A DNA stretch of 54,732 nt from a virus. The stretch spans positions 1 to 54,732 of the IMG/VR virus record IMGVR_UViG_3300010885_044183; one strand, given 5' to 3'. A program made the position numbers and the translations under genes. The notes under the pieces are model-generated. The model was not told where the DNA came from, did not search any database, and saw nothing but the letters and a program-made list of their open reading frames with translations. Positions 8,350-28,742 of this stretch are shown piece by piece. Every line of letters starts with the position of its first letter. The stretch's first letter is position 1.

Positions 8350-9800
8350 TGCGCCGCCGCTTGGTTGCCAAGCCCTGCCGCATCAACCGTCGCTTGCTGC
8401 TCTAGCTGACGAGCGAACTGCTCATCCTGCTTGTCCTGGATCGCCCCCTGCTCTTCCTCAAGCGTGGTATCAGCTGCGATGATCTCGCCTTGGCGCAGGT
8501 TCTCGAACAGCGTCACATCACTAATCGCCCCTTGCTGCCACGCCATCACCAGCGCACTCAGCTCAGCCGGAGCCATACGTGCAGGATAGAAGTCGCGATT
8601 GAGCTCGAACTTTACTTTATCATCCGGCAACGCAGCGAACTGCGCCAGCCAACGCAGGGCTTGCGTCATGCCCAAGCTAATGGTCTGCGAGATAGAGCTG
8701 AGCATCGACTCCTCACCCTTGCGCCGTATGCTGGCGCTGTCCGCCGCCTCTACCGCCTTCTTCTGCGCCTCGAGCATACGCGCGCCAACAATCGCCATCA
8801 GTTGCTCCTCGCGCTGCAACTTGTTCTCCAGCGTCTTGAGTCCCGTGCCGCTGAACTCGATGAACTCAGCTTTGGCGTCAGGGTTCTTGGTGACGATGGC
8901 GCGTTCACTGCCCAAGTAGATGGGGTCGTTATTTTCACTCTGGAAACCCGCTAGGAACAGCGTAGGCAGCGCCGTGAAGTGGCAACCGTGGGCGTAGTCC
9001 GCGCTTGTGCGGTAGTGCGACAGATTCAGATCCACTAGGTCGATGAGCGGAGGCTCATCCACCTCTGAAGACGCATCATCGGTGCCGATGAACTGAAACG
9101 GAATGTAGTTGATTGGCGAAGAGTTGATGGTCGGGAATATGTCCGCCCCAATTTGAATGTCGGCATCATCCTTGCGCTCATAGAGCCGCTGACGATAGAC
9201 ATTATTCAGCAAATCGAGCACGCGCCACTGATCTACCGCCGTCACCTTGTATTCATCCTTGTCGTCCTTTTTATCCTCCACCTCGTGCAGCACCACCAGC
9301 GTCAATACCGTCTTGTTGTCGATGCGACCGGTGCGCCAGTTGATGATATTCTCCGCTGTGTAAAGCTGAAGCGTGGGACGCACGTTCTGAGCGATGGCAT
9401 CCGCCTGAGTAGCGCCCTTGGCCAGAGGCGGGCAGTCCACTAGCACGCCTACGCGTCCGACGGTCAGAGCATGCTCGCACACCTCTTGGGCGAACACCTG
9501 CAGTGGGTTGCCGGCAGAGTCTACATCCTCAAGCAGTTCAATCATCGCATCGGGAACTTCGACCACTGGTGGCTTCTGCAGCATCATGCCTTCTAGCCCA
9601 CTGATGGTGCGCCACGTAGCGTTGTAGAAGGTGGTGCGTATCTTGTACGATTTATAATCGGGATCAGTTTGCGCCTTCAGCTTGGGCAGATACGCCTCGC
9701 CGCCCGAGTGGACAGCGTCCTGACCGGCGGAGCAGTCGCGACAGCGCTTCCACTTGCTGCTGTATTTGCCATACTCTGAGTGCTGTGTGTTTACGGGCAT
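8346..9800 (-). CDS. Portal protein, DUF4055 family
   Basis: The 484-residue product has the DUF4055 pattern. Near the N-terminus are YKIRTTFYNATWRTISGLEGMM and VDSAGNPLQVFAQEVCEHALTVGRVGVLVD. In the core are NYIPFQFIG, HYRTSADYAHGCHFTALPTLFLAG and KAEFIEFSGTGLKTLENKL. The tail is Gln-rich. The protein forms the dodecameric DNA gate at the capsid vertex. The start at 9800 is preferred because GGAGG lies five bases upstream; the upstream in-frame starts would place the site inside the gene. It directly follows the terminase and a small lipoprotein gene. Confidence 0.85.
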   Translation of the reverse strand: MPVNTQHSEYGKYSSKWKRCRDCSAGQDAVHSGGEAYLPKLKAQTDPDYKSYKIRTTFYNATWRTISGLEGMMLQKPPVVEVPDAMIELLEDVDSAGNPLQVFAQEVCEHALTVGRVGVLVDCPPLAKGATQADAIAQNVRPTLQLYTAENIINWRTGRIDNKTVLTLVVLHEVEDKKDDKDEYKVTAVDQWRVLDLLNNVYRQRLYERKDDADIQIGADIFPTINSSPINYIPFQFIGTDDASSEVDEPPLIDLVDLNLSHYRTSADYAHGCHFTALPTLFLAGFQSENNDPIYLGSERAIVTKNPDAKAEFIEFSGTGLKTLENKLQREEQLMAIVGARMLEAQKKAVEAADSASIRRKGEESMLSSISQTISLGMTQALRWLAQFAALPDDKVKFELNRDFYPARMAPAELSALVMAWQQGAISDVTLFENLRQGEIIAADTTLEEEQGAIQDKQDEQFARQLEQQATVDAAGLGNQAAAQ

Positions 9801-14774: not shown

Positions 14775-14833
14775 TGGGCGTCCTCTCGCAGTCAGCCACG
14801 GCCAACTCTACTGGTGGATTCAGAACTTCAGAT

Positions 14834-15118
14834 TCAAGTTGTTGCATTTCGTGATCCCTTTTGCATTTCACGCACTAGGAACAGCGTGTATTTATCTTTG
14901 TTGCGCGATACTGAGCAAAGCAGCCATCCCGCCGCACCCCGCTCTGTGAGCTCGCTCCCAAGTAGATACTCAGGCACGTCCTTTCTGATCATGTAGTCAA
15001 GGCGTGCTGGCGGTAGTGGCGAGATTTGCGCCGCCACCTTCTGGAACAGCGCCGCTTCCAAGTCTGCAATGCGCGCTCTTAGTCGCGCCTCCTCACCATC
15101 CGGCTGATCATCACACAT
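14834..15118 (-). CDS. Hypothetical protein, 94 aa
   Basis: The start MCDDQPDGEEARLRARIADL at 15118 is chosen because GGGAGG lies five bases upstream; the longer frame lacks a site. The N-terminal 35 residues form a charged heptad-like helix, and the rest is a small mixed domain (YMIRKDVPEYLLGSELTERG, GWLLCSVSRNKDKYTLF). I do not recognise it. Its place next to the primase suggests a replication accessory factor. Confidence 0.5.
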   Translation of the reverse strand: MCDDQPDGEEARLRARIADLEAALFQKVAAQISPLPPARLDYMIRKDVPEYLLGSELTERGAAGWLLCSVSRNKDKYTLFLVREMQKGSRNATT

Positions 15119-15194
15119 ATAGCCTCCCAAGGTAAAAAAAGAGGGAGAGCCAATGCCGCGCTCTCCCCAAGTAGCCACAGCAGCGAACTGCGGA

Positions 15195-15947
15195 TTAGTC
15201 TTCAGCGTCTTCCATTTTTACCTTCACCTTGCCGGCGGACACGGACTCGTAGAACGATGATGCTTCGGCCAGCTCCTCAGACTCAGTCGCGCGCCCAAGC
15301 TCAATGACCCAGCCCTTCCACTTGCCCTTCTCGTTTTCTTCGTCCTTCGCCTTGCACTCGTACACGGTCTTGAACATGTCGCCGCCCTGCTGCTGCATCA
15401 GCGTCATCCAGTTCTTGGACTTTTTCATTTGAGTGCGCGAGAGGGAAACCAACACGCCGGTGCGGTCACCGTTGGGCAGCACGTGCAGGCAATAGTGCAT
15501 GCGGGTGTCAGTGAGGATGTCGCATTTCTTTTCGTTCACCGAGCCATCCGGCAACGCAAAATACCACCGCCCCTCGTCCGACTGCGCCAGCACGCCCGAC
15601 GCCTCCATACCGGCGATGGCCGAGGGCAGGAACTGCCCCTTGAACCCACCGCCCGAATCAGCGGGAGCCCAGCGGTTGAAACGGCGCTGGTATGCGCAAG
15701 GGATAATCTCTACGCTCTCGAACACTTCGCGCGTGACGGTGTTGAAGAACATGCCCGCCTTTGCGCCCTTGACGTATTCGTCGGAATCGGCGTCAGCCGC
15801 TGGACTCATCTTCTGCAGCATGGCGAGAAACGGTATCGCGAATGATTCCGCGTCCGCCTCTTCGAACCCACGCCCCATCGGTTTGCCCTTCACTGCGGGG
15901 AGTTGTTTCTTGACTTCTGCGACTTTGGTAGTTTTCTTTACAGCCAT
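15195..15947 (-). CDS. Conserved phage DNA-metabolism protein (possible ssDNA-binding type)
   Basis: The 250-residue protein starts MAVKKTTKVAEVKKQL at the conserved AAAGGAAC ribosome site. It contains a block common in phage replication modules: AIPFLAMLQKMSP, GAKAGMFFNTVTREVFESVEIIPCAYQRRFNRW and GGGFKGQF. An acidic C-terminal tail (KVKMEDAED) follows, and such tails are typical of single-strand binding proteins. It sits between primase and helicase genes. The ssDNA-binding role is an inference from composition and neighbours; the family is known mainly as uncharacterised. Confidence 0.6.
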   Translation of the reverse strand: MAVKKTTKVAEVKKQLPAVKGKPMGRGFEEADAESFAIPFLAMLQKMSPAADADSDEYVKGAKAGMFFNTVTREVFESVEIIPCAYQRRFNRWAPADSGGGFKGQFLPSAIAGMEASGVLAQSDEGRWYFALPDGSVNEKKCDILTDTRMHYCLHVLPNGDRTGVLVSLSRTQMKKSKNWMTLMQQQGGDMFKTVYECKAKDEENEKGKWKGWVIELGRATESEELAEASSFYESVSAGKVKVKMEDAED

Positions 15948-15987
15948 GATAGTTCCTTTCGTTTGTTTAATTAAATAACACCTTGCC

Positions 15988-16509
15988 CTACACCTTCGCC
16001 TTCTTCGGTAGCTGCACCACGGACTTGGTGGTGTCGTGAGCACCAAACATGTCCATTGGCAACTTGACTTTCGCCTTCACGCGCTCAACCACAAACGCCT
16101 TGAGCGTCTGCCAGTGCACCGCTCGCTCCAACTCGCACTCGAACTTCTTCTCGGTCAGCTCCGCCGCCAGCTTTGCCGCTTTGTCATACTCGCCTTTGCC
16201 GAAACTGATCGACAACTCTGTCTTCACAATTCCACCATACCCATTTGTATTCAGCCAGTCGAACGCCTCCTCACGCCGCTGCGCCGGTATTCCGACGGTG
16301 AAGTCCGGCCTCACCAGCACCTTTTCCCCGGAGTCCAGCGTGAACTCTTTGAGTTTTGCTTCGGCCATAGCTGCCGGCAAATCTTCCATGCACAGCTTCC
16401 GCAGCATCTCATTTAGGTCGGCCAGCGTTTGCGCGGTTTGCGCAATCTGCAGCTCAATATCCACCTGTCGCTTGGCCAGCGTTACGATCTCATCAAGTGC
16501 GCTTTGCAT
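15988..16509 (-). CDS. Conserved hypothetical replication-region protein, 173 aa
   Basis: The N-terminal 50 residues form a predicted coiled coil (IVTLAKRQVDIELQIAQTAQTLADLNEML). A compact domain follows: EFTLDSGEKVLVRPDFTVGIP, then REEAFDWLNTNGYGGIVKT. The Lys-rich end includes VERVKAKVKLP. Proteins of this design are common beside phage SSB-like genes, with unknown function. The start carries the exact AGAAAGGAACTAAAATG leader used by many early genes here. Confidence 0.55.
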   Translation of the reverse strand: MQSALDEIVTLAKRQVDIELQIAQTAQTLADLNEMLRKLCMEDLPAAMAEAKLKEFTLDSGEKVLVRPDFTVGIPAQRREEAFDWLNTNGYGGIVKTELSISFGKGEYDKAAKLAAELTEKKFECELERAVHWQTLKAFVVERVKAKVKLPMDMFGAHDTTKSVVQLPKKAKV

Positions 16510-16533
16510 TTTAGTTCCTTTCTGTAGTGGTGA

Positions 16534-16884
16534 TTAAACTTTATCAGCGCGCTCTTGCGCGCCGTATCGCTTTGTGAGCTTGGCCATGTTGTACTCTATG
16601 GTCTCTTCCCGCGTGATGAGCAGCGCTTGGCGCAGCACTTCCATGTAGAACTCGAGGTCGCCCAACTCTTCAACCACATTCTCGCGGTCAATGGGCTTGT
16701 TGTAGATCGCCGCCTTCTTCACCGCTTCCAGCAGTTCGCCCGCCTCACTGGAGATGCCCATCGCCATGTGCAGCTGATGCGCTTCGCTCGGAGTCAGCTC
16801 CCGTGCTATTGCCGCGCCATCCTTCGCCAACGCAAGCACGAAGTCCGAGTGCTCGGATGGTGGTATGCTTTGCCCTTCTTGCAT
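16534..16884 (-). CDS. MazG-like nucleotide pyrophosphohydrolase
   Basis: The 116-residue protein shows the all-alpha NTP-PPase pattern: SSEAGELLEAVKKAAIYNK followed by NVVEELGDLEFYMEVLRQ. These supply the EAGELLE and EELGD metal-binding helices of MazG-like enzymes. Such phage enzymes hydrolyse (d)NTPs or host alarmone-type nucleotides. The start at 16884 (MQEGQSIPP) has AAAGGAACTATC upstream; the frame continues to 16986 without a site. It fits with the other nucleotide-pool genes in this region. Confidence 0.75.
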   Translation of the reverse strand: MQEGQSIPPSEHSDFVLALAKDGAAIARELTPSEAHQLHMAMGISSEAGELLEAVKKAAIYNKPIDRENVVEELGDLEFYMEVLRQALLITREETIEYNMAKLTKRYGAQERADKV

Positions 16885-16898
16885 GATAGTTCCTTTCT

Positions 16899-17234
16899 TT
16901 ATTTTGAAATGGTTGAATAGTAACGTTTGTTCCGCGTATCCCATTCCAGCATACGCAGCCGCTTCCCTCTGTTGCCAATTGCCCACGCCAGCACCGCAAT
17001 CAGCGTAGGCGAACCCAGCGCCACAACGTAGTCCAGTTGCTCGTCATATGCGCTCGCCGCTATTGCGGCAACCTCTGCGGTAGTCTCGGCACCGATGATC
17101 GCCGCGCCCGGAGGCCACACAATTCGTATGTCTCCGAATTCCGCCGTAGCTGCCAAGTCCAGCCCTTTGCTCACCCAGCGCCCGAGAGGGTCTTTGCGCA
17201 TGGGTTCTTGAGGGATGTATACTGTTGGTCTCAT
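16899..17234 (-). CDS. Hypothetical protein, 111 aa
   Basis: The sequence begins MRPTVYIPQEPMRKDPLGRW and later has the acidic/aliphatic block AIIGAETTAEVAAIAASAYDEQLDYVVALGSPTLIAVLAWAIGNRG. This could be a small alpha/beta domain. It ends with a basic Tyr-rich tail. The N-terminus resembles other phage proteins that begin with a VYVPQEP-like strand. No function can be given. It has the AGAAAGGAAA early ribosome site. Confidence 0.5.
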   Translation of the reverse strand: MRPTVYIPQEPMRKDPLGRWVSKGLDLAATAEFGDIRIVWPPGAAIIGAETTAEVAAIAASAYDEQLDYVVALGSPTLIAVLAWAIGNRGKRLRMLEWDTRNKRYYSTISK

Positions 17235-17287
17235 TAGATTTCCTTTCTAAAATTTAGGGTAGCGCGCTCACCCTTGAAAGTAAACTG

Positions 17288-17506
17288 CTATGCCGTGCGC
17301 ACAAATAAAACGCCGCCCTCTACGCCAAGAATTTTGACCCTCTTTCCGGATTCGAGAACGGTCTGCACCGCTTGCCCCAACAGATGCTTGGTGCGGGCGG
17401 TGCCGTCTGTTGCGACGAACCATGTCTCGTACAGCTCCAGCCCCATCACCTCGCGCCGAATCTTATCATAGCGACTCTCGAATTGCGGCATTGTGTTCCG
17501 GTACAT
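17288..17506 (-). CDS. Hypothetical protein, 72 aa
   Basis: This small protein has an amphipathic N-terminal half (RYDKIRREVMGLELYETWF) and a beta-rich second half (VKILGVEGGVLFVRTA). AGGAGG lies seven bases before the ATG and overlaps the helicase stop codon, so it is co-translated with the helicase. No family is recognised. Confidence 0.5.
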   Translation of the reverse strand: MYRNTMPQFESRYDKIRREVMGLELYETWFVATDGTARTKHLLGQAVQTVLESGKRVKILGVEGGVLFVRTA

Positions 17507-17507
17507 T

Positions 17508-19193
17508 TCAGCCTCCTATCCATGGGCGCGCCGCGTCGCCGTTGATAACGTCGGCAACTTCTTTCTTAGAGCGCAATGCGTTGATGATGGTGGTGTCGAT
17601 AGTTTCCTCAGCCTCAAAGTCCACATACCCAACCGTGCCGACAGAGCCTATGCGGTGACAGCGGTCTTCAGACTGTAGCCGATCAATGAGCGCGAACGTG
17701 TTCGAGTAATACAGCGCGCTGTTGGAAACCGTCCAAGTTTGCGCCACACCGCCCGCCCGCTGCTGAGCGAGCATGAAGCGAGCCGCTCCTGAGCGGAAAT
17801 CTGCCACCGCCGCCGCCCGCCCCTTGTCGTTGATAGCGCCGTAGAACTGCACCACGCTCTTAGCGCCATACGCCTCACGCAACACCTCACTTATCCGCCG
17901 TATGTCCTCTGTGAATCGGCACCAAATGATCGCCGCCTCATCCCGCCCCTCTAAATACTCCATCAGCGACACAATGCGCGGATTCTCTTTCCAGCTCGGG
18001 AACAGCTCCACCTGCACGCCCTCTGCATTGGGGACATAGCCGCATATGATCTGTTGAAGGCGGAGATAGACGGTGAGCTTGTTGAAGGTGCTGATGCTGC
18101 CGTTTTCCCACTCTATGCGGCACTCCGCCTTCACCTTCTCGTAAAGTTCGCGCTGCCGCCCGCTCAGCTCCGTGTAGTATCGGCTGTAGGTCTTCTCCGG
18201 CAGGTCTAGGCAGTCCGCCTTCAGCACGCGGTAGCTGTGGGGCTCGATTAGCGCGCGGAGCCGCTCTAGGTTCTTGTAGCGAGGTTTGCCGTCCTTGTCC
18301 TTGGCCACTATGGTCGGCAGATATGCGGGTTCCATGTATTTGTCGAAGGTGGTGATGATGCTGCGGGCATTTTTCGCCAACAGCGCATGCACCTCATCGG
18401 TGAGTTCCTCGGTGCAAATTTCCTTGGGCTTGAGCGGCACCCCATCCTCATCCATCGATCGCCAGCTGACCACATACCGCCCTTTCCACTTTTTCGGCAC
18501 GCGCATCGCTATGTGGCGCATGATGCCGCTGCTCTGTGGCATCAGCTCGGCATACTCTGATTTGAACGCGGTGTATGAGTCGGTCTCCAGTATCGTCGGG
18601 TCGAGGAACTCAAACTGTGAGAACAGATCGAATGGATTCTCTCCCACCGTGCCGGTCAGTATGCGTCGGTATGAGCTGTGGTTGCGCAGCTTGACGATGC
18701 GCTTGGTAGTGGATGCAGTGGGTGTTTTTATGCGGTGACTTTCATCCACGACTACCATCGCACTCTCACCAGAGTCCAGAAAGTCAATCGCGAAGTCCAG
18801 CGCGTTAGCACTCGCGCCGAACGCCTCTGAATTCATAACGACGATGCGCAGCACGTCTGTCGGCTTGAGTATGCGTTGGATCTCGAGCGCCCTTATGCGC
18901 GATATGCCGCTGGGCGACCGCCACCTCAGCATGACGTAGGGAATTTCATCCGGCAGGTGCGTTGGGATTTGCTCATTCAGCCACACAGGCACAGCGCCCT
19001 TCGGCGCGATGATCAGCACGATGTCGATTTTGCGGCTGCGCCATAGGTGCGCAATGTTGTCGATCAGCAGCTTGCTCTTGCCGGTGCCCTGCTCCATGAG
19101 TAGTGCATAGACCTTTTCATCTTTTGACTTTTTTAGACCGGTCAGTTGGTGCTTGAACGGCTTTGTCTTGAACTGCCTCGTCTTTATCATCAC
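17508..19193 (-). CDS. SNF2-type DNA helicase/ATPase
   Basis: The 561-residue superfamily-2 protein has motif I MEQGTGKSKLL (residues 33-43), motif Ia IIAPKGAVPVW, motif II VVVDESHRIK (DESH at 150-153) and motif III RRILTGTVGEN. Its C-terminal lobe contains AAIIWCRFTEDI, QFYGAINDKGRA and the diagnostic RLQSEDRCHRIG motif VI. It is a dsDNA translocase rather than a classical strand-separating helicase. A PD-(D/E)XK nuclease gene lies just upstream, a common phage pair. The start is a GTG or the adjacent ATG after AAAGGAACTGA. Confidence 0.88.
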   Translation of the reverse strand: MMIKTRQFKTKPFKHQLTGLKKSKDEKVYALLMEQGTGKSKLLIDNIAHLWRSRKIDIVLIIAPKGAVPVWLNEQIPTHLPDEIPYVMLRWRSPSGISRIRALEIQRILKPTDVLRIVVMNSEAFGASANALDFAIDFLDSGESAMVVVDESHRIKTPTASTTKRIVKLRNHSSYRRILTGTVGENPFDLFSQFEFLDPTILETDSYTAFKSEYAELMPQSSGIMRHIAMRVPKKWKGRYVVSWRSMDEDGVPLKPKEICTEELTDEVHALLAKNARSIITTFDKYMEPAYLPTIVAKDKDGKPRYKNLERLRALIEPHSYRVLKADCLDLPEKTYSRYYTELSGRQRELYEKVKAECRIEWENGSISTFNKLTVYLRLQQIICGYVPNAEGVQVELFPSWKENPRIVSLMEYLEGRDEAAIIWCRFTEDIRRISEVLREAYGAKSVVQFYGAINDKGRAAAVADFRSGAARFMLAQQRAGGVAQTWTVSNSALYYSNTFALIDRLQSEDRCHRIGSVGTVGYVDFEAEETIDTTIINALRSKKEVADVINGDAARPWIGG

Positions 19194-19335
19194 TCAGTTC
19201 CTTTATTTTGGCATCATATGCAACGACCGCCGCACGCGGAACCGCTACGTCAAATGCGGGTTCATAATCGTCAAACGCGCGCCGCAGCTTTGTCGCTGCC
19301 CGCAGCGCCTCTTCCAACTTCTGGAGTCGATTCAT
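19117..19335 (-). CDS. Hypothetical charged protein, 72 aa
   Basis: The protein has an N-terminal amphipathic helix (MNRLQKLEEALRAATKLRRAF) and a Lys/Asp-rich, probably disordered tail. Its 3' end overlaps the helicase gene by 77 bp, which is unusually long here. The start overlaps the acetyltransferase stop, suggesting coupling. Coding is likely but the function is unknown. Confidence 0.45.
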   Translation of the reverse strand: MNRLQKLEEALRAATKLRRAFDDYEPAFDVAVPRAAVVAYDAKIKELSDDKDEAVQDKAVQAPTDRSKKVKR

Positions 19336-19700
19336 CCGTTCGCCCAGCTACGGTAATGCTGGTGGGTGCCTTCGATTTGATGGAAGCCACGCGCGGAATA
19401 AAAGTCATGCAGCTGCTGCCCTTTGAGTCCTGGACGGCTGGCGTAGGGTGCAGCTCTGAATGTAACATTCGATGAAGTTTCCCAGCACCAGTCGGCCAGC
19501 TCCTTCAGCAGACGGCTGCCGAACCCTGCGCGCCGGAGTTTTGGCGCAACGTAGAAGTTCGTCATCCTCGCGCAGCTCTTTGGGTTGGGCAGTCGCAGGA
19601 TGAGGTGCTCTCTCTTGGTTAGCGCGCGCAGCACAAAGTGCACATCAACGCCATGCTCTGGGTGCATCCAGCAATAGTAGAAGCCTTTTGGTATCATCAT
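19332..19700 (-). CDS. GNAT-family N-acetyltransferase
   Basis: The 122-residue protein shows the GNAT core. Strand beta4 and the acetyl-CoA loop are MTNFYVAPKLRRAGFGSRLLKELADW read in parts (RRAGFG = R-x-x-G-x-G). The C-terminal signature is FYSARGFHQIEG. It would transfer an acetyl group from acetyl-CoA to a small molecule, protein or modified base. Acetyltransferases are known in phage thymidine-hypermodification pathways, and a candidate cluster lies about 5 kb away, but a link is speculative. The start at 19700 has the AGAAAGGAACTGC early site. Confidence 0.75.
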   Translation of the reverse strand: MMIPKGFYYCWMHPEHGVDVHFVLRALTKREHLILRLPNPKSCARMTNFYVAPKLRRAGFGSRLLKELADWCWETSSNVTFRAAPYASRPGLKGQQLHDFYSARGFHQIEGTHQHYRSWANG

Positions 19701-19738
19701 TGCAGTTCCTTTCTATGGGTTGGGAATAATACCGTCTT

Positions 19739-20173
19739 TCAGCTCGTCAGAGCGTTAATGAGCCGCCTCCAGCAAGAAGCGTCCCATTTATCATCATACC
19801 AATACCGCGCCTTCATGCACAGCTCGTCTCGCGTCCACTGATTGACAGTGCGCGCATGCACCCCATCAACCAACCAGCGATACGGCGCTGCAGATATGAA
19901 TGTAAACACGCGTCCATTGACAGAGACGCGCTTGAGCGCCCAGTTGATCTGATCGATGTTCAGCCCCTCTGCACCGAGCACCGCCGTGCTGTCTCGCGCG
20001 GGGAGCGGCACCGCCTTCAGCTCGATCCACCCCTCAACCCCGCGAATGACGTAGTTGACGTCAGGCATGCCCACCACCACCCCATTCTCCACCCGCTCCA
20101 ACAGAGAGAACGCGGGCAGTGTTTTCTGCACGCCATCGCGCAACCAGCTCCAGCTCGTCGCCTCAAGTCCCAT
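19739..20173 (-). CDS. PD-(D/E)XK nuclease (VRR-NUC-like)
   Basis: In this 144-residue protein, GMPDVNYVI (D38) and GWIELKAV (E51-x-K53) form the PD...ExK metal site of restriction-like nucleases. The N-terminus GLEATSWSWLRDGV resembles phage VRR-NUC proteins. It likely cuts branched or recombining DNA together with the SNF2 protein encoded next. The ATG at 20173 lacks a good ribosome site, while a short upstream frame with a strong one overlaps it (20163-20222). Translational coupling or a frameshifted start is therefore likely. Confidence 0.7.
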   Translation of the reverse strand: MGLEATSWSWLRDGVQKTLPAFSLLERVENGVVVGMPDVNYVIRGVEGWIELKAVPLPARDSTAVLGAEGLNIDQINWALKRVSVNGRVFTFISAAPYRWLVDGVHARTVNQWTRDELCMKARYWYDDKWDASCWRRLINALTS

Positions 20174-20222
20174 GCTTCACCCATCGATGCCCAAGCTCCA
20201 CTCTCTGATTCTGATCATTCAT
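20163..20222 (-). CDS. 19-codon upstream reading frame with strong ribosome site
   Basis: AGGAGC lies just before an ATG at 20222 that opens MNDQNQRVELGHRWVKHGT and stops at 20163, 11 bases inside the nuclease gene. The nuclease ATG itself has no clear site. This looks like a leader that couples translation. A single-base frameshift would instead fuse it to the nuclease as an N-terminal extension. Confidence 0.4.
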   Translation of the reverse strand: MNDQNQRVELGHRWVKHGT

Positions 20223-20300
20223 AAAAGCTCCTATTTTAGGGTATACAAGGGCATCAGCCGCCCTCTGAAAAGCGTGTAGCGCGTGATCTACAAGCCTGAT

Positions 20301-23114
20301 TTACTGCTCCGGCCATGATTCAGCCGTGACATCCTTCGCCCAAGTAACATTTATGTGGCGGATCTTATTGAAGCGTCCGCGCATCACATACCAACTTTTA
20401 TCCACCACGCCGGTCTCCGTTATGCCGCGTCCGACCTCCGCGTAGACCCCCGCCGACACCGTCATCCCGCGCCGCCCCGTATCGTCCTCGATGACCATAT
20501 TGAGGTATGCGGTATCGTGCGTCATCATCTTTGGACGCCCATCCTGCACCCGCTTGACTTGGAACACATACTCATTCAGGTCACGCGGCACCTTACTCAC
20601 CAACCGCCCAAGGAAGTAGAAATCTGATGGATTCTCCCCAGCAGTCAGTGCTGCGTCGATGTCGCGCATAGTCCACAGCTTACGCACGCCCGGAAAGCCG
20701 CACTTGGCTGGGTTGGCGTATAGCGCGGCATACCGCTCGTGCGCTGGGTATATGTTCGAATAGAGCACTTCCGCCGCCTCTATTTTCGCCTCGTCCTTAT
20801 CAGTCCATTTGCCGCGCGACTCTACGAACTTTTTGGCGGTGGTCTCGCCGAACCCCTTCAAGTTGAGGAATCCGCCGGTGAGCTTGCCGTTGATCACCTC
20901 CCAGTTCTCGCGCGAGGTGCGCACGTCAAACGCCACGAACTTGATCTTCTCCGCGTGCAGCTCACGTAGCAGGTTGATCGTTTGGGCTTCACCCTTGGTG
21001 TGACGTAACGTAGCGCAAGCAAACTCGAGCGGGTGATGCGCCTTCAGCCAGCCGCACCAGTAACTGATCAGCCCATAGGCCACCGCGTGCGACTTGTTAA
21101 ACGCCCAAGCACCCATAGTGGTAAGGTGACCCCACACTTTAGACGCCGCCGCCTCAGGCACGCCCTGCTTCTTTGCGCCTGCAATGAACTTGACGCGATA
21201 GGTGTTGAAGTATTCCTCACCCTTGCTCTTGCTCATGGTCTTGCGGATGTCGGTCACGTCCTCCCACGACAGCTGCCCAACCTTGCGCGCGATCTGCATC
21301 ACCTGCTCCTGGTACACGATGATGCCATAGGTGCCGCTGGTAAACTCGTCACATAGCTGGTGCAGGTTCTCGAGCCGCCCTTCACGCCCCATGCGCCGGT
21401 CGCACCACTCTTGCCCGCCGCCGGAGTTGAGTGGTCCTGGCCGACCTAGTGCGCCGATAGCCACAATGTCCGCAAACTCCGACACCACGATCATCTTCTG
21501 CAGCATCTGCAGCGCGTCACCCTCGAACTGGAAGATGCCCGCCCAGCGCTGCTCGTTGAACAAATTGAATACCGCCGCATCATCCAGCGGCAGCTTAGTC
21601 AGGTCGATGCGCTTTCCGGGCAGCTGCTCGATCGTATGCTCTAGCACCGCCAGTGTGCGCAGCCCCAGCATGTCGATCTTGAGTAGATTCAACGCCTCTG
21701 CGCTCACCTTGTCCACCTGCGCAGTAGAGCTCTCCGCGTTGACGGTGCAGAAATGGTTCACGGGCTCTGCACAAACCACAATGCCCGCCGCGTGGGTGCC
21801 GGAGGTTTGCGCGTGCCCCTCGAATGCAGTGGCTGTGCGCACTTGAGGGAATCGAGCGAGCACCGCCTTGCCCGCGTCCATACCTTCGAGCGTGTCCAGT
21901 AGGCAAAGCTCGCCTCGAGAGTCGCCCGACGCCCGCTCCACCATCACATCGAGCAGCGGCTGGAATTCCCAAGGCTTGATGTCGAGCCGCTTGCCCACCA
22001 GCTTCAGAATGGACTTGGGCTGCAGCGTCAGCACTGTGCCGATATGCACCACGTGGTCGTCGCCATACTTCTCGCGCAGATACTGAATCACCATCTCCCG
22101 CTTCGGGTCTGGCGGGAAATCCAAGTCAATGTCCGGGAGATCCGCTCTTGTAACATCAATAAACCGTTCAAACAGCAGGCCGTGATGGATAGGATCGATA
22201 TCAGTAATATACAGCAGAAAACAAACAAGTGAACCGGCACTTGAGCCGCGCGCCGGACCAACCACCATATGCTTTTTGGCATAGACCACCATATCCGATA
22301 TGATTAGGAAATAACTCTCGAACTTCTTCTCGTGGATCATCTTCAGCTCATGCAGCAGCCGCTCCTCATACCGTTTTGTCCAGCGCCCGAGCCGCGCCTT
22401 TATGTTCGCCCGACAGAGCTTTTCAATATCACCCTTAATTGTCATGTTTACGGCGACTGGCAGATTTACCGAACAGGTTTCGGCTATTTCGTCGCTCAAA
22501 GTCAACGCGGATGGGGGCAAGGATTTGACGTATGCACGCACCTCACGTTCGGAAAGGATGTGTTGGGGATAGTTCTCCGGCGAGCCGCCAAATAGCGCGT
22601 ATGCCCCTTTATCCGTGATATTTGGGTATCGGTTTTCTGAAACCGCAACCAAAGGCAAGCCACTCGCCTTTTTCTGCGTCAGCAATTCTTGAGGCGTAGA
22701 GGGCGATACGTCCGCATACCAATGCGCAAGCTTGGACTTCTTCAGCTTCTTGGGCGGAGCGAGTGAGCCGTTTAGCTTTATCACATTTGGGCTAGAGTCG
22801 TACAGCGCCTGCACCGAAAGGGCACCGCTGACTGCCGCAGACGAGAGGCCGTAAAGTTCCTTCAGCCCCGCGTTGTTGCGTGCAATAAGAGTGAGGCGTG
22901 CGGTGTCGCAGCGCACCTCAGCGCCGAGCAGAGGCTTGATGCCCGCAGCCTTGCACGCCGCGAACCAAGAGACGTGCCCAAAGGTGGTGGCGTCAGTTAA
23001 GCACGCCGCCTTCTGGCCGAGCTCTTTTACGCGGTTGACGATCGAAGCGATGCGGCCATAGCCGCGATCACTAAAATCGAAATGGAACTCAGAGTGGATT
23101 CGTAGGTTGATCAT
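20301..23114 (-). CDS. DNA polymerase III alpha-type (DnaE-like) polymerase
   Basis: The 937-residue replicative polymerase of family C has an N-terminal PHP domain (LRIHSEFHFDF, CLTDATTFGHVSW). The palm has GPARGSSAGSLV (286-297) and the catalytic PDIDLDF (327-333), then a fingers region with GIIVYQEQVMQIAR and WAFNKSHAVAYG. A helix-hairpin-helix-like region (GGFLNLKGFGETTAKKFVE) and a short C-terminus follow. It is about 200 residues shorter than bacterial DnaE and seems to lack most of the tau-binding tail. The His of the first PHP motif is kept, but the motif is altered (HSEFHF). A proofreading-type exonuclease is encoded just upstream. Confidence 0.9.
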   Translation of the reverse strand: MINLRIHSEFHFDFSDRGYGRIASIVNRVKELGQKAACLTDATTFGHVSWFAACKAAGIKPLLGAEVRCDTARLTLIARNNAGLKELYGLSSAAVSGALSVQALYDSSPNVIKLNGSLAPPKKLKKSKLAHWYADVSPSTPQELLTQKKASGLPLVAVSENRYPNITDKGAYALFGGSPENYPQHILSEREVRAYVKSLPPSALTLSDEIAETCSVNLPVAVNMTIKGDIEKLCRANIKARLGRWTKRYEERLLHELKMIHEKKFESYFLIISDMVVYAKKHMVVGPARGSSAGSLVCFLLYITDIDPIHHGLLFERFIDVTRADLPDIDLDFPPDPKREMVIQYLREKYGDDHVVHIGTVLTLQPKSILKLVGKRLDIKPWEFQPLLDVMVERASGDSRGELCLLDTLEGMDAGKAVLARFPQVRTATAFEGHAQTSGTHAAGIVVCAEPVNHFCTVNAESSTAQVDKVSAEALNLLKIDMLGLRTLAVLEHTIEQLPGKRIDLTKLPLDDAAVFNLFNEQRWAGIFQFEGDALQMLQKMIVVSEFADIVAIGALGRPGPLNSGGGQEWCDRRMGREGRLENLHQLCDEFTSGTYGIIVYQEQVMQIARKVGQLSWEDVTDIRKTMSKSKGEEYFNTYRVKFIAGAKKQGVPEAAASKVWGHLTTMGAWAFNKSHAVAYGLISYWCGWLKAHHPLEFACATLRHTKGEAQTINLLRELHAEKIKFVAFDVRTSRENWEVINGKLTGGFLNLKGFGETTAKKFVESRGKWTDKDEAKIEAAEVLYSNIYPAHERYAALYANPAKCGFPGVRKLWTMRDIDAALTAGENPSDFYFLGRLVSKVPRDLNEYVFQVKRVQDGRPKMMTHDTAYLNMVIEDDTGRRGMTVSAGVYAEVGRGITETGVVDKSWYVMRGRFNKIRHINVTWAKDVTAESWPEQ

Positions 23115-23443: not shown

Positions 23444-23694
23444 TACAGGAACCCCTTCTCTCCGGCGATCCACTCCGTCATCTCGACATTGTAGTCACCT
23501 TCGACTTCCGTTTTGTTCATATGGATGATCTGCGACTTGGGCACCCACTTGGCATCGGTCTCCACCTTGCCGGTGCCTTCCCAGAGCAGCACCGCCTTGT
23601 CTGATTCGCGCACCTTGGTGAAATAGCCTTCCCAAGTTTTGCGTTCCTTCTGCGCATACTCGTGGTTGCGCACATACTCTCGTTTCTGGCTCAT
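23443..23694 (-). CDS. Hypothetical protein, 83 aa
   Basis: This small charged protein has a predicted Sm-like or beta-barrel pattern: YFTKVRESDKAVLLWEGTGKVETDAKWVPKSQI read in strands. Small phage proteins that end KWVPKSQI and sit near exonuclease or DNA-modification genes are common and unassigned. It overlaps both neighbours (ATGA and TAATG), so it belongs to one operon with the exonuclease and the polymerase. Confidence 0.55.
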   Translation of the reverse strand: MSQKREYVRNHEYAQKERKTWEGYFTKVRESDKAVLLWEGTGKVETDAKWVPKSQIIHMNKTEVEGDYNVEMTEWIAGEKGFL

Positions 23695-24215
23695 AGCTTC
23701 ATCTTCTTTATGATTGCGACCAGCGCCTTCACGTCGGCCATTGCTCGGTGCTCTTGTTTGAGCGGTTTGCCAATCTTCAGCTCATACAGGTCGGTCAGCT
23801 TCAGCCGGTGCCCCTTTATGTGCTTGGTGAGTTGCACGGTGCAGAGCTGCTCCGGAGGCCAAGGGAATGCATACTGCGCGCCGCAGCGCTCCAGCTCAAC
23901 CCGTAGCATGCCCATGTCGAACGGCGAGTTGTGGCAGACGATGCGCCGCTCGCCTAGCATGAACTCCGCGAGCTGCGGGAGTATCTCGAGAAACGTGGGC
24001 TTGCCCTCGAGGTCGGCATTGGTCAGCCCTGTTATGCGTTTGTGCACCTCTTCATCAATAGGCTCGCCCGGATAGAGGAGCATATCGAACCGCCCCAGCT
24101 CTTTGTATTTGTGGTCGAGCTTCACCATCCCTATCTCGATGATCTTGGGCTGTGCCGCTAAGTCCGCAATCTCCGGCTTAAGGAGACCCGTTGTTTCTGT
24201 GTCGAATACAAGCAT
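23691..24215 (-). CDS. DEDDh 3'-5' exonuclease (DnaQ/epsilon-like)
   Basis: The 174-residue protein has Exo I FDTETTG (D5, E7), Exo II CHNSPFDMGML and Exo III HRAMADV with the catalytic His. It also has the DnaQ-type ITGLTNADLEGKPTF. It likely proofreads for the DnaE-like polymerase encoded two genes downstream in the same operon, giving the phage its own alpha-epsilon pair. TAGGAACAC precedes the ATG. Confidence 0.88.
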   Translation of the reverse strand: MLVFDTETTGLLKPEIADLAAQPKIIEIGMVKLDHKYKELGRFDMLLYPGEPIDEEVHKRITGLTNADLEGKPTFLEILPQLAEFMLGERRIVCHNSPFDMGMLRVELERCGAQYAFPWPPEQLCTVQLTKHIKGHRLKLTDLYELKIGKPLKQEHRAMADVKALVAIIKKMKL

Positions 24216-24224
24216 AATGTGTTC

Positions 24225-25178
24225 CTAGAAAAATGAGGTTGGGCTCATGCGGTCAAGGTCGCCGCATATGCTGTTGATCTGAGACAGACGCTGAGCGCAG
24301 CACGTGCGGCAAATTGGCGGCAGCTCTTTGTAATTCAGCCTTGAATACTCGACCACTGCTGGCCAGATCTCGGAGTGCCAATTCGAATCCCAAAGGTTAC
24401 CAAGTGCATGCGCCTGAGGTTCCGCCTGAGCGTCGCCCGCCGTAATGCAGCAGGGGTATACATCGCCGCCCGCATCAATGTAGAGCTGGTAGAGCGCCGC
24501 GTGGCAGTTCTGAAAGGGCTCTATGCGCCGCTCCCACTTCTCCGGCACCCGCACCGCGCGCGCGCCGCTATCCGGCACAATGTGGTGGGTCTCGATGTCG
24601 GTGATGCCGCGCTCCTTCGCAAACGCCAGAACATTCGGCAGGTCATCCACGTTGTCCGCGTGCAGTGTTATGCCGAGCCCAACCTTCACGTTCGCCGCGA
24701 GCATTGCATCAATGCTCCTGATAACCTTGGCGACCGAAACCTTGCCGCGCACCTTCTCGTAGATTTCTGGCGTCACCGCGTCCAGCGACACCCGCACCCA
24801 TTCCGCTCTCGACAGAAGCTTGAGGTCGATTCCGGGTGGAACATAGCCGGTGATCGTCATGCCGAACTTCAGCAGCAGCATGGTGTGCCGCTCCATCACG
24901 GCATTGAAGTAAGAATACGCCATCGGGTCGCCGCCCGCATAGCACACAGACTCTACGCCCATGCTGCTGAACATGTCGAGCTTATCGCACCAGTCCGCCA
25001 CATGCATGTGCTTCATAACTTTGCGCGAGGGGTGGTCGCACATAATGCAGCGGTTGAAGCACGCGTCGCAGAGAGCTACGTGCAGGCTGATAGGCGCGCC
25101 GCGCCGCCCGCCCTTCACACCTTCATAGTAGCGCGAGATCTTAGCTGCGCGCGCGTGATCCATATCTTTGTAGGCCAT
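24225..25178 (-). CDS. Radical SAM enzyme with SPASM-like Cys-rich C-terminus
   Basis: In this 317-residue protein, CFNRCIMC gives the CX3CX2C iron-sulphur site (C40, C44, C47), followed by AGGDPMAY (SAM-binding GGxP-like). A TIM-barrel pattern with WVRVSLDAV follows. The C-terminus has Cys groups (PFQNCHA, VYPCCITAGD, PPICRTCC) suited to an auxiliary cluster. It would cleave SAM to make a radical on a peptide, amino-acid or nucleotide substrate. Neighbours are ThyA-fold, ThyX, HAD and FAD genes. Radical SAM isomerases are established in phage thymidine hypermodification, which makes that role a leading inference. The start at 25178 has AAGGATAATC upstream. Confidence 0.82.
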   Translation of the reverse strand: MAYKDMDHARAAKISRYYEGVKGGRRGAPISLHVALCDACFNRCIMCDHPSRKVMKHMHVADWCDKLDMFSSMGVESVCYAGGDPMAYSYFNAVMERHTMLLLKFGMTITGYVPPGIDLKLLSRAEWVRVSLDAVTPEIYEKVRGKVSVAKVIRSIDAMLAANVKVGLGITLHADNVDDLPNVLAFAKERGITDIETHHIVPDSGARAVRVPEKWERRIEPFQNCHAALYQLYIDAGGDVYPCCITAGDAQAEPQAHALGNLWDSNWHSEIWPAVVEYSRLNYKELPPICRTCCAQRLSQINSICGDLDRMSPTSFF

Positions 25179-25180
25179 GA

Positions 25181-25906
25181 TTATCCTTGCGAGTATTGTA
25201 AGTAATGCTTTGCGATTTTCGGTTCGTCCATAGTTGCAGAGTTCGCAAATACGGACACTTGCCCAACTTTGAGCTTTGCCTCTTTGCATACGGCGCGCAG
25301 AGCGGCATCAGCCCCGAACACATCACCCCATAGGTGCGACCAGTTGCAGTGGCGAACTATGACGGATATGCTCATAACCCCATCCAGCACGTGGAATCCA
25401 TAGTTCATAACACATGACACCGAGGTGCGGTTCGTCTTTGGCACGTCAGGGCGCTCGCTCAGCGGTGCGCAAACCCAAGCAGGACTCTCCACGTCAAAGT
25501 AATACAGCGGCATCGAGCCATACCTACCGGCAATGCGATCCAGCATGAAGCTGATATACCCCTCTGGCAACTCCGGTCTCGGCATGCATAAACGGCCAAA
25601 TGAATTGTTGTCGTTGCCAGAGAACCCCGCCAGCTGCCAAATGCGATCATCCTTGATCATCTTGCGTAAGTTTGAGCCGTGCTCGGCATATATCGCCTTG
25701 GGGAACAGAGACTCTACCAGCCAGTCGCCCCAGAATAGCTGCCGCCCGCCGCCCTTCGCCGCCCTCTTGAGCTTGAATGCCTCATTGAACGCATTATATT
25801 CGCGATCAGTCGGCGCAGAGGCCGGAGCCTGACCGAAGAAGCCGCTGATGCGCCGCTCCTTCAGCAGCCGCTCCGTCATCGCTGTGAACAGCCGCTCAGC
25901 GTTCAT
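25181..25906 (-). CDS. Divergent thymidylate synthase-fold protein (ThyA/dNMP hydroxymethylase-like)
   Basis: The C-terminal half of this 241-residue protein aligns by eye with the ThyA core. SVSCVMNYGFHVLDGVMSISVIVRH has Cys165 where ThyA has its catalytic Cys. Arg185 lies 20 residues later, like the phosphate-binding Arg166 (spacing 20 in E. coli ThyA). LWGDVFGADAAL replaces LGLPFN, and KVGQVSVFANSATMD resembles the family end. The N-terminal half has GDWLVESLFP and KDDRIWQLAGFSG. The usual RSxD and LPFN motifs are changed, so substrate or product may differ, for example a hydroxymethyl-dNMP. It overlaps its upstream neighbour by 11 bp. Confidence 0.6.
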   Translation of the reverse strand: MNAERLFTAMTERLLKERRISGFFGQAPASAPTDREYNAFNEAFKLKRAAKGGGRQLFWGDWLVESLFPKAIYAEHGSNLRKMIKDDRIWQLAGFSGNDNNSFGRLCMPRPELPEGYISFMLDRIAGRYGSMPLYYFDVESPAWVCAPLSERPDVPKTNRTSVSCVMNYGFHVLDGVMSISVIVRHCNWSHLWGDVFGADAALRAVCKEAKLKVGQVSVFANSATMDEPKIAKHYLQYSQG

Positions 25907-26345
25907 CGGTGAACTCTTCGAGCATCGCCGCATACACCTGCAGATCACGAGCGGAGTCCTGATGTCCGCCGCGACTGAAGTTGTGAGCATAGCGTTGCAG
26001 CTTGCCGAGGCACATGATGATGTAGTCGAGCCGCTGAGCGTCGTTGACGTCAGTGATAGGTGGGATACCGCCATCCGGGAACAGCGCCAGCAGGGCAGCG
26101 CCAAACCGCTGATAGTTGTTTCCGTATATCCCATTGCGCTCACGGAAGGTCTCTGCCGCCGCATCGAGCAGCTCCGGTGCGATAGGCTTGCGCGCAACTT
26201 CAACTTTTTTCTCTTTGCGGATGATAGGTGGTATCGCAGTGATTGTCCGCTGGCAGAGGCTCGTCTCATGCGCACCCCACGAAGCGCCGCACTCCATGCA
26301 GCTCCAGCGCCCGTTGACAAGTTTCTTGTTTTTGCAGCTATCCAT
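25896..26345 (-). CDS. DUF6378-like protein with Cys-rich N-terminus
   Basis: The 149-residue protein starts at 26345 (AGGAGC upstream). It opens with a short zinc-ribbon-like CMECGASWGAHETSLC. The all-alpha domain LLDAAAETFRERNGIYGNNYQRFGAAL, NDAQRLDYIIMCLGKLQRYAHNF and DSARDLQVYAAMLEE follows, which matches the phage DUF6378 pattern. The helical acidic layout recalls MazG-type nucleotide hydrolases, but I cannot confirm that. It overlaps the HAD gene by 8 bp. Confidence 0.6.
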   Translation of the reverse strand: MDSCKNKKLVNGRWSCMECGASWGAHETSLCQRTITAIPPIIRKEKKVEVARKPIAPELLDAAAETFRERNGIYGNNYQRFGAALLALFPDGGIPPITDVNDAQRLDYIIMCLGKLQRYAHNFSRGGHQDSARDLQVYAAMLEEFTDER

Positions 26346-26802
26346 TTGAATGCTCCTCATCGCCAATGCGCACGATGCGCGCTGGCAGGTTGAACTCCGA
26401 TTTGTACATCTCGACAATGTCCGCACGGTCATCGATGACGTCGAAAATTTCCGCGTGCGGGATGTTATACAGAAGGTTCGGTTCGAACAACCAACTCACC
26501 ATTATGCGCTTCAGCGCCACTCCAGGTATGTGATCCAAGTCCGGATTGCGCATAAGGATATGGTGCGGTGTGATGCTCGCCTTTCTGTACAGCCAGCGCA
26601 GCGTCTCCGCTTTGTGCCGCACCGGACGCCCCGTTATCACGATCACCCGCTCCGAACGGATCTCGTTGATATTCAAAACGTCATCCATCCCGCACAGTGA
26701 GTGATACTCGCGGAACCTGCCCTCAGCGTCTCCCGGCAGGATGCGCGACCTGCGCCACCGGTCATCGGCGATGCAACCGTCTAAATCAATTATCTGATAC
26801 AT
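26338..26802 (-). CDS. HAD-superfamily phosphatase
   Basis: This 154-residue protein has motif I DLDGCIAD (D6, D8), motif II VITGRP (55-60), a likely motif III Lys in LKRIM (K98) and motif IV DVIDDRADIV (DDR at 124-126). The layout is that of the small HAD enzymes related to polynucleotide-kinase 3'-phosphatases and 5'(3')-nucleotidases. The substrate is probably a nucleotide or DNA end. It lies between the ThyX and ThyA-fold genes and uses the AGAAAGGAAAACC early ribosome site. Confidence 0.75.
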   Translation of the reverse strand: MYQIIDLDGCIADDRWRRSRILPGDAEGRFREYHSLCGMDDVLNINEIRSERVIVITGRPVRHKAETLRWLYRKASITPHHILMRNPDLDHIPGVALKRIMVSWLFEPNLLYNIPHAEIFDVIDDRADIVEMYKSEFNLPARIVRIGDEEHSNG

Positions 26803-26822
26803 GGTTTTCCTTTCTGGGTTGA

Positions 26823-27608
26823 CTATGATGCTTTGCCGTCCTTGGCGATGGGGGAGGCTTCGTGGCGCACGGAGTCGAATCGCTCAGCTATCATCTTGCG
26901 CCGCGCCGCAACAAACTCATTCGGCAGCACAATTGGATACACTGGGCACTCTTTCTCGCCGTAACGTGGGAAGGCGCAGTGGCAGTGGTTGACGCAGAAC
27001 ACCTGAATGAACTGTTCCGCCCAAGGGTGTTGCTCCACCACGAGCCGCTTCATCTCGCGGAACACGTCCTGGTATTCACCCTGAGTCCGGGTGCAGAGCC
27101 GCAGTTCGCCGGTGTTGGCCAGAGTGCGCAAGTTCATATCCACGATGATGCTGGTGGTGATGTTCGTCGGCAGAATACCGCGCGCATCCTGCGGCGGGAC
27201 GCCGGAATCGACCAAATAGCCGTATGCCTCCATCATACGCTCCATCGCCTCGTCCCACTCATCCGTCGGAATGTCAAAGCGCTCTGCAGGCTTCACCCCG
27301 ACGACAGAGGCTGGTTTCAGCACTTCATGCTCGCGCGCATCGACCACACGCATCGCCTCCTGCGCAAAGCTCGCCGTGCGCGTCCGCACCAGCTGGTGGG
27401 TGAATGCACGCGTCACGCCGCTGATCTTGAACACGTAGTGCACAAACTCCCACGACGACTTGATCGTGTCGCGCATGTAATCCAGATGCTCTTGGCGCTT
27501 TGCATCGCTCCACGCCGAGGGGTCATCCGCATGGGACAGCCGCGTGCCCTTGGTTTGCAGGAGCAGCGTCAGCGCGTCTTGGGTATAGCTCAACAGTTCG
27601 ACTTTCAT
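26823..27608 (-). CDS. thyX: Flavin-dependent thymidylate synthase (ThyX), divergent
   Basis: The 261-residue protein shows ThyX features: helix SSWEFVHYVFKISGVTRAFTHQLVR read in parts, then the signature segment RTRTASFAQEAMR (residues 75-87). LPTNITTSIIVDMNLRTL and CTRTQGEYQDVFREM follow. Compared with the canonical RHRxxSxxExSxR, the His is Thr and the second Ser is Ala. The C-terminus has a Cys/His group (CVNHCHCAFPRYGEKECPVYP). It would methylate, or otherwise add a one-carbon unit to, dUMP using FAD and folate. Having ThyX beside a ThyA-fold gene suggests two different C5-modifying reactions. The start has AAAGGAACGAAA. Confidence 0.8.
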   Translation of the reverse strand: MKVELLSYTQDALTLLLQTKGTRLSHADDPSAWSDAKRQEHLDYMRDTIKSSWEFVHYVFKISGVTRAFTHQLVRTRTASFAQEAMRVVDAREHEVLKPASVVGVKPAERFDIPTDEWDEAMERMMEAYGYLVDSGVPPQDARGILPTNITTSIIVDMNLRTLANTGELRLCTRTQGEYQDVFREMKRLVVEQHPWAEQFIQVFCVNHCHCAFPRYGEKECPVYPIVLPNEFVAARRKMIAERFDSVRHEASPIAKDGKAS

Positions 27609-27618
27609 TTTCGTTCCT

Positions 27619-27792
27619 TTATGGTTGGTGGTATCTTGTGTAGATCTCTTTGTGCGACTCCATCTTGATGTCGCCCTTCTTCCTGCGGTGATACGGTAAT
27701 GCCAAATATTCCTTCTTGAGTCGCTTCAAGGTGCCTTCTGTGCGGAGGATTCGCGCCGCCACCCGTATGCGCCGCGCCGCCTTGCCGTTCAT
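27619..27792 (-). CDS. Small basic protein, 57 aa
   Basis: This short gene opens MNGKAARRIRVAARILRTEG, continues with a Lys/Arg-rich helix (LKRLKKEYLALPYHRRKKG) and stops at 27619. It fills the gap between the ThyX and FAD genes. Its ATG overlaps the stop of the FAD gene (ATGA). It is strongly basic and may bind nucleic acid. Similar very basic small proteins occur in many phages without assigned function. Confidence 0.55.
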   Translation of the reverse strand: MNGKAARRIRVAARILRTEGTLKRLKKEYLALPYHRRKKGDIKMESHKEIYTRYHQP

Positions 27793-28742
27793 GAGTTCAA
27801 GCTTTCGAGCTTTGCGTCATAACCCCCCAGCAGCATCATCCGGCGGATTGCAGTGATGTCATCCAGCACATCGTCGAGCAGGATATTGCGCCACGTAGCG
27901 AACCGCCCCAGCGAGTATATCCCGAACTGCTGCGTGAGCATATGCAGGATGTTCTTGCGCGGCTGGTCAGCTATCGGGGTGATCTTCCCGAATGCCTGCG
28001 CATGGTCGGCTTCGATCCGCTTAACGTGCAGAACGTTCTGCAGCCCGAACGCCGCGCAAACCTCTGACAGCACGGCAGACTCCGAGTCGGGCATACCCTT
28101 CCCGAGATCAGAGAATCCGGTATCGACGTGCTCGATCGTCAGCAGTGAGCCGGTGATCGACGCCCGATATACGCCAAATTCCATAGTCGGGAAATACACG
28201 GTCTGGTACACGTCGCAGTTGGGGATGGAGTAGCGCGACACGACAATTGGTTCCCGTTCAAACTTGATGTCTTTGATGCTGACCCCAAGCGTGTCGATCA
28301 GAAACGGCAGAGGAATGGTGCTGACGACCTTGAGGCCGTCGATACGGATTTGCCGAAGCATCTGATAGTTCACCGCGCGCTCCCACTGCACGCGCGCACC
28401 GCAGATATCGGCCAACTCCGCTTGCAAGCCATCAGGCGCAACCCAGCGGTGAGCCGACTCAAGATTCCAGATGCTGCTCTCGCCGACTATGCCACGCACC
28501 TTCTGCGAGTATAGGTTGGCCATGCGCAGAGAGGCCGGAACTTCCTTGCGATTGAACCAAATTGACTTACGCACGGTCACGCGCCGGAAGGGGATGCCAA
28601 GCGCTTTGCTCACGCGGTCGTCACGGAAGCGCAGCACGGCACGGTGGCCGACCACACTGCGCGGGTTCCGCTCATATATTTGCGCTTGTGCGTTTATTGC
28701 GCCGCAGATCAGCCCGCTCAGGCCAGCTCCAAGTATTATCAT
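27789..28742 (-). CDS. FAD-dependent oxidoreductase
   Basis: The 317-residue protein opens with a Rossmann motif MIILGAGLSGLICG followed by the acidic AQIYERN that binds FAD ribose. It ends with YSLGRFATWRNILLDDVLDDI, the GR-x-x-x-W-type FAD-contact block of amine-oxidase and UDP-galactopyranose-mutase-like flavoproteins. The middle (STIPLPFLIDTLG, VSRYSIPNCDVYQTVYFP) fits that fold. FAD-dependent lyases act on amino-acid-modified thymidine in some phages. Next to radical SAM, ThyX and ThyA-fold genes, a base-modification role is the best inference. The start uses AGAAAGGAAACG. Confidence 0.78.
   Translation of the reverse strand: MIILGAGLSGLICGAINAQAQIYERNPRSVVGHRAVLRFRDDRVSKALGIPFRRVTVRKSIWFNRKEVPASLRMANLYSQKVRGIVGESSIWNLESAHRWVAPDGLQAELADICGARVQWERAVNYQMLRQIRIDGLKVVSTIPLPFLIDTLGVSIKDIKFEREPIVVSRYSIPNCDVYQTVYFPTMEFGVYRASITGSLLTIEHVDTGFSDLGKGMPDSESAVLSEVCAAFGLQNVLHVKRIEADHAQAFGKITPIADQPRKNILHMLTQQFGIYSLGRFATWRNILLDDVLDDITAIRRMMLLGGYDAKLESLNS

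Follow-up and report, generated by a model that had tools for sequence, protein, structure and literature searches.

A phage replication operon with an exchangeable enzyme slot between thymidylate synthase and DNA polymerase genes, a possible pyrimidine-deoxynucleotide tailoring cassette

The described systems closest to the locus considered here are those of Pseudomonas phage M6 and Pseudanabaena phage Pam3, where a ThyA-related protein, a radical S-adenosylmethionine (SAM) enzyme and a phosphatase are clustered near the DNA polymerase. Canonical thymidine hypermodification of this M6/ViI type is post-replicative, and goes from 5-hydroxymethyldeoxyuridine (5-hmdU) through a kinase and an amino-acid transferase to radical SAM, pyridoxal-phosphate (PLP) or flavin-dependent steps. 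The same three kinds of protein lie near the polymerase in the 54,732-base virus record IMGVR_UViG_3300010885_044183, the whole of which we term the window, and an earlier examination of its letters (the sequence-only reading) had seen there a candidate cluster for hypermodification of DNA bases. The phosphatase is of the HAD type, however, where that of M6 and Pam3 is of the HD type; the kinase, aGPT-Pplase1/2, PLP enzyme, photolyase-type radical SAM enzyme and Nmad5 of these phages are lacking, and the window has instead a flavin-dependent thymidylate synthase (ThyX) and a flavoprotein of predicted UDP-galactopyranose-mutase (UGM) fold. We propose, with a probability of roughly 0.42, that this region is a pyrimidine-deoxynucleotide tailoring cassette set in a phage replication operon, in which enzymes housed in an exchangeable slot would lead to modified DNA. 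The minus-strand operon comprises, in order, the following genes, DnaQ and DnaE being separated by two further small open reading frames (ORFs):

27789..28742, minus strand: flavoprotein of UGM fold, core gene (phrog_4828 5.5e-81; AlphaFold2 (AF2) model and PDB fold match)
27619..27792, minus strand: 57-residue ORF between flavoprotein and ThyX, possibly not a gene (ORF alone)
26823..27608, minus strand: ThyX (PF02511 2.5e-36; motif RTRTASFAQEAMR replaces RHRxxS)
26338..26802, minus strand: HAD phosphatase-like protein of the PNKP-phosphatase type (phrog_415 8e-12, phrog_4889 1e-10, PF25109 2.5e-4, the last falling under its curated cut-off)
25896..26345, minus strand: DUF6378-like protein (C-terminal half of phrog_4889, 2e-11)
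25181..25906, minus strand: putative ThyA-like protein of 241 residues, slot gene, with catalytic-Cys motif VSC165 (hhalign score of 29.2 against the ThyA family)
24225..25178, minus strand: radical SAM/SPASM enzyme, slot gene (PF04055 1.2e-14, PF13186 4.7e-8)
23691..24215, minus strand: DnaQ-like 3'-5' exonuclease, downstream edge of the slot (PF00929 2.4e-25, phrog_192 1e-39)
20301..23114, minus strand: DNA polymerase III alpha (DnaE), PHP and polymerase parts (PF07733 1.7e-65, PF17657, PF02811)

From the HAD to the radical SAM gene, all with ATG as predicted start codon, adjoining genes overlap by 8-11 bp or leave a gap of 2 bp, the actual start of the radical SAM gene being the ATG at 25178 and not that at 25289. 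Family models make the identities of ThyX, the radical SAM/SPASM enzyme, DnaQ and DnaE certain, and the radical SAM, ThyX, HAD and FAD-type enzymes named in the sequence-only reading all hold (PF04055/PF13186, PF02511, phrog_415, and phrog_4828 with the fold model). A homologue of the 57-residue ORF was sought in related contigs and none was found. Judged from their sequences, the genes of the operon are real, conserved and unusual as a set, with a specific function that is predicted. Because a 123-bp direct repeat stands at both ends of the window (1-123 and 54610-54732), the phage genome in this record is probably complete and circularly closed.

The evidence that carries our proposal comes from about 95 related loci, of which 77, complete with both slot edges, were counted. 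Nearly all follow the order flavoprotein, ThyX, HAD/DUF6378, slot, DnaQ, DnaE, and this widespread core keeps its order in Pbunavirus, Carpasinavirus, Myosmarvirus, Wifcevirus and dozens of viral contigs; in these four genera the flavoprotein is annotated as hypothetical and HAD with DUF6378 as 'polynucleotide kinase/phosphorylase'. The slot between HAD/DUF6378 and DnaQ stays in place and its tailoring enzyme varies: the 77 loci hold SDR (32), VOC (27), small class I methyltransferase (10), glycosyltransferase-like (5), radical SAM (4) and ThyA-like (3) proteins, and one sulfotransferase, which is above its Pfam cut-off. These come as SDR with VOC, as SDR, FkbM, radical SAM and VOC together, or as the ThyA-like and radical SAM pair of the window and three viral contigs, and many slots are empty. 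Pbunavirus differs from the window in having an empty slot (PS44), Carpasinavirus, Myosmarvirus and Wifcevirus in having SDR with VOC, and none of the four carries a ThyA-like or radical SAM gene. On a tree of flavoprotein and ThyX the slot contents are scattered, the methyltransferase in many places and the radical SAM enzyme in four separate ones, once with the ThyA-like protein and three times with SDR, FkbM and VOC. The contig L088, of the same clade, stops just past DUF6378 and is uninformative on the slot. Gene order, its conservation and the swapping of slot contents are thus direct observations. Since group-transfer and redox enzymes have been repeatedly exchanged between a thymidylate synthase and a polymerase, the slot enzymes would act on a pyrimidine nucleotide or DNA base, and exchange at this one site is best explained by action on what the core pathway produces. 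The caveat of the sequence-only reading, that a different chemistry or a nucleotide-level pathway might be at work, fits such an operon, running from ThyX to the polymerase with methyltransferase, sulfotransferase, SDR/VOC and radical SAM enzymes in its slot.

The process may be pictured as follows. The core (UGM-fold flavoprotein, ThyX, HAD phosphatase and DUF6378-like protein) would take charge of the thymidylate branch within the nucleotide pool. The ThyA-like one-carbon transferase and then the SPASM radical SAM enzyme would act in succession on a pyrimidine nucleotide, the conserved cysteine of the former attacking the pyrimidine so as to allow addition of a one-carbon unit at C5, which radical chemistry would subsequently remodel. 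DnaE, encoded in the same operon, might use the altered nucleotide, or the base might be altered within DNA, and the resulting modified phage DNA would escape restriction. Modified DNA as end point, the substrates and the order of reactions are what we infer; the pairing of a ThyA-like with a radical SAM protein suggests that DNA building blocks are altered by a route unlike those already known. If the slot does decorate a nucleotide or base, phage DNA modification would gain an entry route not known before.

A superficial list of parts, with ThyA-like, radical SAM and flavin enzymes together, might suggest that the window encodes the canonical M6/ViI pathway itself, yet we hold this to be highly improbable. 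Searching the whole apparently complete genome with the kinase, aGPT-Pplase1/2, PLP enzyme, photolyase-type radical SAM enzyme, Nmad5, ThyA and HD nucleotidase of M6 and Pam3 gave no match better than E 0.09, whereas as a positive control the proteins of the two phages recover each other at 8e-20 to 5e-240. The best window matches of the 5-hmdU DNA kinase (M6 gp54, Pam3_49) are at chance level, E 0.26-0.5, against 8e-20 between M6 and Pam3; the aGPT-Pplase, PLP enzyme and photolyase-type radical SAM enzyme, which M6 and Pam3 share at 3e-49 to 5e-240, were not found in the window, and neither M6 nor Pam3 ThyA has a match there, so that a recognisable ThyA-family dUMP hydroxymethylase is missing too. 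The sequence-only reading had rightly noted the lack of kinase, amino-acid transferase and PLP enzyme. As M6 and Pam3 enzymes give no match above chance, the 5-hmdU route that it had put forward is not supported; the radical SAM enzyme turns out to be of the SPASM type and not the photolyase-like isomerase, and the ThyA-like protein is not recognisable as the dUMP hydroxymethylase that would open the pathway. Pam3 (L060) itself displays, at 13677-22187, a full M6-type gene set for thymidine hypermodification in a cyanophage.

The ThyA-like protein is the most delicate member of the proposed cassette. Searches of Pfam with a limit of E<=10, PF00303 included, of PHROGs and of NCBIfam give it no match, and nothing was found among PDB sequences and phage records. 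It might accordingly not have the ThyA fold at all, the pair then being a radical SAM enzyme with some other partner; this we find rather unlikely. In its favour, the AF2 model, made from four sequences, has a pLDDT of 43 and the global hhalign comparison with the ThyA family a P of just 0.05. Against it, alignment with nine ThyA-family phage enzymes, over just 64 columns, reaches its score with the catalytic Cys, a strand hairpin, an Arg and a helix in ThyA register, which none of 201 column-shuffled or reversed decoys attains, and hmmsearch among 889 proteins gives as best non-orthologue a Kuttervirus ThyA-family enzyme (E 0.085). The ThyA fold assigned by the sequence-only reading is weakly supported, by the Cys motif in register and a score unmatched by decoys, with no Pfam hit. 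C165 and R185 are invariant in the four orthologues. The catalytic-Cys segment with its following Arg is what the protein shares with T4 dCMP hydroxymethylase and phage dUMP hydroxymethylases, while it differs from ThyA-family hydroxymethylases in having no PF00303 match, a short C-terminus and no evident sugar-binding His and Tyr. An acidic residue lies at or near Asn177 (E. coli numbering), a position taken by Asp in dCMP hydroxymethylase; because the alignment register is ambiguous there, cytosine specificity is a lead only. Besides the window, only the viral contigs L004, L005 and L008 were found to carry the gene; in each of them the radical SAM gene comes next, and operon position and gene order are identical. 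Bacterial genome scans yielded no relatives of either protein. The counterparts are 56-64% identical for the ThyA-like protein and 70-73% for the radical SAM enzyme, with ratios of non-synonymous to synonymous change (pN/pS) of 0.36-0.42 and 0.28-0.39; as these are close to that of DnaE (0.32), both look like functional genes under purifying selection.

The radical SAM enzyme has its CX3CX2C motif at residues 40-47, and an alignment of five relatives displays the SPASM signature Cx12Gx4C ... CX2C, in agreement with the general pattern Cx9-15Gx4C. In scans of viral contigs its close relatives (49-73% identical) all sit in this slot, other matches being 21-26% identical or short. L012 gives a second architecture for the family (49-51% identical), with SDR, DUF6378-like, FkbM methyltransferase, radical SAM and VOC genes consecutively at 6021-9369. 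A conserved C-terminal FF, SFF in most, ends these proteins, though the residues that precede it vary. SPASM radical SAM enzymes mostly act on peptides or cofactors. This usual choice of substrates, together with the closest solved structures (SkfB, PqqE, cytosylglucuronate decarboxylase and MoaA) and the closest NCBIfam models, which are maturases, all far under cut-off, would suit a side pathway to a product other than DNA, be it a peptide, a cofactor, a signalling nucleotide or a metabolite of host takeover or anti-defence, hitch-hiking in the replication operon. We regard this as quite unlikely: no precursor peptide was recognised beside the radical SAM gene, and the slot keeps its place between ThyX/DUF6378 and DnaQ while its partners change.

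As for the core, ThyX scores above the cut-off of TIGR02170 and, aligned to TM0449 by phmmer, retains the equivalents of N163, R165, N169 and R174, hence the dUMP and FAD residues. Where RHRxxS is expected it reads RTRTAS. RTR or RSR replaces RHR across nearly the whole clade, and the second Ser of the motif is often replaced by Ala or Thr. We rejected the idea that this change proves a new chemistry, since a close relative (L014) retains RHR. In other phages the members of phrog_4889 are annotated as polynucleotide kinase; because they fuse the HAD and DUF6378-like halves, both calls are clear. The DUF6378 label of the sequence-only reading is thus sound through phrog_4889, whereas the Pfam match itself is just 0.08 (13.6 bits against a curated cut-off of 27.1). 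The L012 homologue matches DUF6378 at 0.019 and DUF1599 at 0.11, a weak indication of kinship with DUF1599/'nucleotide modification associated domain 1'. Many of the related viral contigs carry, between ThyX and HAD, a gene for a T4 DenV-like pyrimidine dimer glycosylase (L115 9785-10147, Pfam 9e-14; similarly in L025, L119, L124, L136, L142, L144, L151 and L152).

The flavoprotein has no Pfam match. Its AF2 model (34-sequence alignment, pLDDT 89.9) can be assigned confidently to the UGM fold: UDP-galactopyranose mutases head the list of PDB matches (Z 21, 293-301 residues, root-mean-square deviation 3.6), ahead of protoporphyrinogen oxidases (Z 18) and, next, monoamine oxidases (Z 16). The match to UGM spans the whole model, whereas in sequence the protein is ~16% identical, has no profile match and lacks a sugar-nucleotide gene context. 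ThyX and UGM both operate via flavin N5 adducts. Phage records with the flavoprotein number 359, of which 291 are Pseudomonas and 27 Escherichia, the others including Serratia, Rhizobium, Xanthomonas and Vibrio; many of the 359 are Pbunavirus, and 469 stretches of viral contigs match it as well. ThyX of the same type, with matches covering at least 80%, is found in 367 records, with identical counts for Pseudomonas and Escherichia, and in Rhizobium phage Y65 the two genes stay close together. Flavoprotein and ThyX form therefore a widespread core, not specific to the phage of the window, where the sequence-only reading had seen the flavin enzyme as a hypermodification part. One might go further and see here a class of phage DNA modification not recognised until now, which would start from a pathway based on ThyX, involve a UGM-fold flavoenzyme, exist in several hundred phages, Pbunaviruses included, and owe its diversity to slot exchange; this we think unlikely. 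If a nucleotide or base is indeed decorated by the slot, the hypothetical protein phrog_4828 would gain a role beside ThyX in hundreds of phages, among them many Pseudomonas phages that are under study for therapy. Filled slots are present in phages available in culture: Serratia MTx, E. coli Wifcevirus, Vibrio VA-RY-3 and Xanthomonas Carpasina.

Several observations weigh against the tailoring cassette. DNA-repair, SSB (single-stranded-DNA-binding) or endonuclease genes occupy the slot interval in some loci, so that it is not reserved for tailoring enzymes, and the glycosyltransferase-like slot proteins, so labelled from the look of their sequences, gain no support from profile searches. The ThyA relationship is weak beyond the Cys motif: the equivalents of the sugar-binding His207 and Tyr209 (E. 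coli numbering) look lost in the joint alignment, which is uncertain there. We recognised no kinase, deaminase or dUTPase that would serve a modified dNTP. Finally, restriction maps with HindIII, EcoRI and XbaI were obtained for the DNA of Pbunavirus SCUT-S1/S2 (PMC6521218). PB1-like phage P1-14pyo was the only one of six phages incompletely cut by EcoRI and HindIII (PMC3634792), and nicks in its DNA may be the cause. The digestibility by common enzymes of DNA from a Pbunavirus with the full core but no slot enzyme makes a serious alternative of mere management of the nucleotide pool, phage DNA staying unmodified: ThyX would make dTMP, the flavoprotein would assist ThyX or deal with by-products, HAD and DUF6378 would dispose of unwanted nucleotides, and the slot enzymes would draw nucleotides away. 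The many empty slots and a MazG-like protein also encoded in the window go in the same direction. This explanation, doubtful in our view, leaves unaccounted for the recurrence of methyltransferase, sulfotransferase, FkbM and radical SAM enzymes in the slots of separate lineages.

Outside the operon, the GNAT enzyme that the sequence-only reading had placed nearby exists, at 19332-19700, 4.5 kb away beyond DnaE; being unlinked and without homologue in related contigs, it was rejected as a member of the pathway. The MazG-like protein has no counterpart found in related contigs, which are fragments. It adjoins a Pam3-like module (15195-19193) made of a helicase (283 bits to Pam3_31) and homologues of Pam3 gp32, gp33 and gp34, yet the hypermodification genes of Pam3 are absent from the window. 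TerL relatives from Manatee Spring carry a different replication module, and at 51623-52921 the structural region of the window encodes a protein with repeated QNENRQYSVVWKSQ-type units.

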